Part shown: piece after piece, positions 32,083-32,360 of the stretch
Position numbering within the stretch: position 1 is the stretch's first letter
How the letters are laid out: each line of letters opens with the position of its first letter
Assembly: GCA_902523675.1 (NCBI GenBank)
Contig: CABZAL010000010.1
Span: 1-33,481, forward strand
From: an uncultured Alphaproteobacteria bacterium
Lineage (GTDB): Bacteria > Pseudomonadota > Alphaproteobacteria > Methylaequorales > Methylaequoraceae
DNA: 33,481 bases
Reading direction: 5' to 3'
The notes under the pieces: generated by a model
Told to the model about the DNA's origin: nothing
The model's input: the letters and a program-made list of their open reading frames with translations, nothing else
Database searches by the model: none
Translations under genes and position numbers: made by a program

Positions 32083-32286
32083 TTAAAAACCGTCGAAATC
32101 AATTTTTTTTCTGAGTATTTTCTTAAATCTTCTTGTAGACTCATTTAACAATCTAGCTTTTTTTTCAGAGGGTTTCTCGTAAGCTCTTCTTTGCTTCATT
32201 TCTCTAAAAACACCCTCTCTTTGCATTTTTTTCTTCATAGCACGCATTGCTTTTTCGACGTTGTTATCTTTTACATGTACTCTTAT
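32083..32286 (-). CDS. rpsU: 30S ribosomal protein S21 with predicted ATA start
   Basis: Not in the ORF track. (ATA)RVHVKDNNVEKAMRAMKKKMQREGVFREMKQRRAYEKPSEKKARLLNESTRRFKKILRKKIDFDGF*. In-frame TAG upstream; no ATG/GTG/TTG between it and the conserved core; AAAGGGAG Shine-Dalgarno 7 nt upstream of ATAATA. Confidence 0.85.
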   Translation of the reverse strand: MRVHVKDNNVEKAMRAMKKKMQREGVFREMKQRRAYEKPSEKKARLLNESTRRFKKILRKKIDFDGF

Positions 32287-32360
32287 TATTTTTTTTCTCC
32301 CTTTAAATTGTTGCTTCTAAGTTATATAAAAAATAATATTAATGTAAACCTTTTTTTTAA

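Follow-up and report, generated by a model that had tools for sequence, protein, structure and literature searches.

The window analysed here is a stretch of 33,481 nucleotides from an uncultured alphaproteobacterium of the family Methylaequoraceae. Its minus strand carries rpsU, the gene of ribosomal protein bS21 (32083..32289), with 68 codons counted from the first of two ATA codons and the stop codon TAA at 32083-32085. The identity of the gene is indicated by its translation, by homologues in 50 of the 60 relatives searched, and by the Pfam model Ribosomal_S21 (PF01165), which matched the product with an E value of 1.1e-17 and 63.9 bits against a curated cut-off of 27. The gene COQ9 lies upstream and is divergently transcribed, pntB converges on rpsU, and rpsU stands alone between them.

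The 5' region of rpsU and its leader

Read on the minus strand, the 5' region of rpsU is TAG AAG CAA CAA TTT AAA GGG AGA AAA AAA ATA ATA AGA GTA CAT GTA AAA GAT AAC AAC. The in-frame TAG (32317..32319, minus strand) bounds the possible start, and no ATG, GTG or TTG was read between it and the conserved VxVKDNN core. The proposed start codon is the first ATA (32287..32289, minus strand; codon 1 in the following), for which family conservation, outgroup alignment and the distance to the Shine-Dalgarno (SD) sequence are the evidence. It is followed by a second ATA (32284..32286, minus strand; codon 2), which would be an internal Ile codon and which occupies the GTG/TTG/ATG start position of other alphaproteobacteria. 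The SD sequence GGGAG (32297..32301, minus strand) lies 7 nt 5' of the first ATA. An earlier note on this DNA had described rpsU as lacking a canonical start, with ATA codons at the start position, and both the sequence and the coordinates were confirmed.

Further upstream, TATATAA (32322..32328, minus strand) is probably the -10 element and would give a leader of roughly 25 nt. In family members the motif comes back at a similar distance; the consensus promoter scan did not pick it out. The leader is essentially unfolded (z = 0.96) and had no match in Rfam, and a structured ribosomal protein leader or autogenous operator was rejected on these grounds. No extended, exceptionally strong SD sequence was found on rpsU, where inspection of the sequences by eye revealed an ordinary GGGAG/AAGGAG core. 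Because the leader is short and unfolded, the SD sequence ordinary and an Rfam match absent, the start codon is the distinctive element of this initiation region.

Non-canonical start codons in the family and in the class

Codon 1 and codon 2 are both AT[A/T] in every one of the 24 family members with a readable rpsU 5' end; two genomes of the family are deposited as 'Rickettsiales bacterium MED715' and 'uncultured Alphaproteobacteria AG-896-A16'. ATG, for which the earlier note had advised looking in relatives, was present in none of the 24. Codon 1 was ATT in 16 and ATA in 7 of the 23 members having 50 leader bases. No variation was seen in the first two bases of both codons or in the base that precedes codon 1, and hardly any in the GGAG core, with the rest of the leader variable; apart from position -1, the most conserved leader columns are -13 and -11 to -8. 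The distance from the A of the SD core to codon 1 is 9 nt in 21 of the 24 members and 10 nt in the other three. In-frame stops are found 1 to 21 codons above codon 1 in nearly all members (two codons 5' of it in L006 and L019), and an upstream start in the family was rejected for this reason. Longer open frames extend upstream in L009 and L011, yet the SD sequence and the probable promoter sit just above the ATH codon there.

A single transition would convert ATA to ATG. On the tree of PntB at least three changes between ATA and ATT are needed at codon 1, and ATG is never seen. Since the family genomes mostly use ATT and ATA among the ATH codons, the third base of codon 1 drifts with composition while avoiding G, and we read this as selection against AUG at this position. 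Codon 1 directly follows seven A's, a run at which an assembly or sequencing error might hide a true ATG, but ATA or ATT occurs in about ten genera whose genomes were assembled separately and differ in the neighbouring bases, so that these are not copies of one error, and the chance of such an artefact is practically negligible.

It is also highly improbable that the gene is a pseudogene, or that it is inactive and a normal rpsU lies elsewhere in the genome. No second S21 copy, which in the earlier note would have spoken against the non-canonical start, was found in the source genome; this genome is 74% complete, which leaves some room for a copy in the missing part. Two family members carry an extra, very divergent S21-like frame (L217 at G006:C8 and L218 at G004:C5), to which no clear start codon could be assigned and which may be counted in favour of a second gene as well. 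Against this, S21 is single-copy in the family members G008, G009, G015 and G017, which are 90-93% complete, and strong conservation of the bS21 protein across the family goes along with many synonymous differences.

The rarity of such genes was judged on the rpsU-bearing contigs of four family members, with 123-162 conserved gene-like open reading frames kept in each after filtering. rpsU alone had homology that extended beyond the most upstream canonical start in each of the four genomes. The gene purM was also without a canonical start in three of them; among the purM loci read (L369-L398) it appears to start with ATT, ATA or ATC in 17 of 20 family copies, often as ATT ATT directly after a stop codon, and has ATG in the window's own genus. 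In several other alphaproteobacteria the start of purM is apparently ATC.

Over the class, 196 alphaproteobacterial rpsU 5' ends were read, with start codons GTG (104), TTG (30), ATG (21), ATC (18), ATT (18), ATA (15) and CTG (8); these are counts and not frequencies, as the sample was similarity-ranked and the window's family is over-represented (24 genomes and one duplicate record). ATA, ATC or ATT stands at codon 1 in 51 loci and CTG in 8, together in about 19 families, with ATA and ATT in AT-rich genomes and mostly ATC in GC-rich ones. The CTG loci are L039, L046, L056, L082, L083, L139, L191 and L213, and include Rhodospira trueperi and Pararhodospirillum oryzae. Of these 59 non-canonical loci, 35 lack any canonical start from the upstream stop down to codon 1. 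In the other 24, mostly GC-rich ATC loci, a possible GTG, TTG or ATG occurs upstream before any stop, and the figure for the class is therefore not as secure as the result for the family; in some of them the GTG falls within the SD sequence (GGGGTGA), which makes them less certain. The AUA start on rpsU, proposed from this one gene, is thus strongly supported, and extends to AUA/AUU within the family and to AUA, AUC, AUU or CUG in the wider set of families. A plasmid search for rpsU gave only rhizobial-type and similar copies. Viral S21 relatives share no more than 63% identity, and many of them carry ATG or TTG close to or at the start position; they were set aside as a guide to the family start codon.

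Position of the start codon

Codon 1 aligned with the ATG of rpsU sequences assigned, from sequence, to Gammaproteobacteria and Betaproteobacteria, for example ATG CCA GTA ATT AAA GTA AGA GAA AAC. Codon 2 matched the position at which Rhizobiales, Rhodobacteraceae and similar groups have their GTG/TTG/ATG start. Translation from the second ATH, in the register of these groups, would therefore use the same position as the canonical start of 147 alphaproteobacterial loci, and codon 2 is likewise AT[A/T] throughout the family. Codon 1 would then be part of the leader, yet all family members share its first two bases. At codon 1 the 147 loci show 35 different codons, only four of the loci having one that begins with AT, which means that where codon 2 is used, codon 1 varies freely, unlike in the family. 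The AUH and CUG lineages have codon 1 fixed and GTT/GTC/GTA or ATT/ATA at codon 2, and the GTT/GTC/GTA of the other AUH and CUG lineages argues against a start at codon 2, as does the outgroup ATG at codon 1. A start at codon 2 is thus improbable. The SD spacing is broad in the codon-2 group, so that spacing alone is not decisive over the class.

The alignment with the outgroup ATG, the SD spacing and the codon conservation together place the start at the first ATA, and rpsU is very probably initiated at the first AUH codon. The earlier note had assigned the position of the initiator Met to the second ATA, and the same three lines of evidence speak against that placement.

Proposed weak initiation and its possible links to IF3 and bS21 supply

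As known from infC and pcnB of E. coli, AUH codons initiate inefficiently and IF3 rejects such initiation; infC, which encodes IF3, starts with AUU in that organism. rpsU carries the sequence marks of AUH genes of the infC/pcnB type, namely a missing canonical start, an AUH codon at the homologous position, conservation, and SD spacing. In the alphaproteobacteria outside the family the apparent start of infC was AUA or AUC in 57 of 57 loci (13 relatives and 44 further loci, 20 of the latter picked for an AUH or CUG rpsU), from which it follows that AUH starts are already part of translation in the class. In the family the pattern is reciprocal: infC starts with AUG in all 17 members read, and AUH is absent from infC and present on rpsU. 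The infC loci read, those of the family included, are L219-L248 and L429-L472.

Residues Y75 and R131 of E. coli IF3 are linked to fidelity, and their equivalents are conserved in the family, so a loosened IF3 was rejected as an explanation; the numbering (Y75, R129, R131, R168) follows what we take to be the E. coli reference sequence. At the equivalents of R129 and R168, Lys is found in the subclade whose rpsU start is mostly ATT (L236, L237, L239-L242, L244, L246-L248). An initiator-type tRNA with CAU anticodon was read from one contig and a matching gene was present on two others; an odd initiator tRNA was rejected, as the scan, which covered part of the genomes, found the ordinary CAU initiator.

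We propose that rpsU is translated from an AUH codon that has been selected as a weak start. Leaving the IF3 step aside, we consider this probable as a whole; that a weak start has been selected on this gene can be held with slightly more confidence than the whole. An ancestral AUG at codon 1 would have been replaced, with AUG selected against since, and a near-cognate AUH (AUA in the window, AUU in most family members) would initiate translation, positioned by a good SD sequence and with the ordinary CAU initiator tRNA presumably decoding it. As IF3 rejects AUH initiation complexes, synthesis of bS21 would be kept low and sensitive to the fidelity of initiation. It would go up when 30S subunits outnumber IF3 and down when IF3 is abundant, as for E. 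coli infC with its AUU codon. By this analogy the chance that rpsU is under IF3-dependent control is about even, and the class-wide AUA/AUC start of infC may be taken as circumstantial support for the link to IF3 and fidelity.

The main alternative is that AUH acts simply as a weak constitutive start, which sets a low level of bS21 with no control by IF3 or feedback. A non-AUG start is indeed the rule on alphaproteobacterial rpsU (GTG 104, TTG 30 and CTG 8, with ATG 21 of 196, in the similarity-ranked counts given above), and we give this explanation a substantial, if lesser, chance. Against it, AUH belongs to the codon class that IF3 discriminates in E. coli; many families have it on rpsU, and class-wide it is found on infC too.

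For the selected, IF3-sensitive start, the physiological part is weaker. A coupling of the rpsU start to ribosome or bS21 supply is a tentative suggestion, and that it closes a feedback loop with the supply of bS21 or 30S subunits is speculative. Since infC of the family starts with AUG, any effect of IF3 on rpsU would not be direct autoregulation, and an IF3 loop in the family would be unlike that of E. coli. One doubtful possibility is that in the family rpsU has in effect taken over the IF3-sensitive start from infC. IF3 would then be made from AUG without feedback, the output of bS21 would read the balance of IF3 and 30S subunits, and a ribosomal protein gene would serve as a fidelity-sensitive valve.

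Conserved AUH starts are known from a few bacterial genes. infC of Staphylococcus aureus starts with AUA, and the conserved AUA start of ccpN and AUU start of cvfC1 lower reporter translation in the same species (PMC13009471). The rpsU of the family resembles infC of E. coli and S. aureus as a translation gene with a near-cognate AUH start of the IF3-discriminated class and a good SD sequence, but it encodes a ribosomal protein and not IF3. It shares with ccpN and cvfC1 the conservation of a non-canonical AUH start; they are not ribosomal genes and belong to another phylum. In Flavobacterium johnsoniae rpsU is autoregulated through an extended SD sequence read by ribosomes without bS21 (PMC9976891). 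The likeness, as proposed here, is control of bS21 synthesis by a special initiation region of the rpsU mRNA; the distinctive element there is the SD sequence, whereas here the SD sequence is ordinary and the start codon is odd. The gammaproteobacterial rpsT (bS20) has a UUG start, and a 2024 review described rpsU regulation as unknown even in E. coli (PMC10931766). Like rpsU as read here, rpsT encodes a small-subunit protein and has a weak start that is confined to certain families, but UUG is a standard alternative start while AUA and AUU are not, and no IF3 link is claimed for rpsT.

Neither AUH starts on rpsU nor the infC/rpsU pattern was described in the open-access literature searched; subscription papers lay mostly outside this search, so an earlier description is possible. 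With rpsU, a ribosomal protein gene is added to the few bacterial genes known for conserved AUH starts, and such starts recur on the rpsU of alphaproteobacteria. Gene callers limited to ATG, GTG and TTG would miss or misplace these genes. The weak start may offer a route that ties bS21 supply to initiation fidelity, and the reciprocal infC pattern of the family opens the feedback role of IF3 to comparative test.
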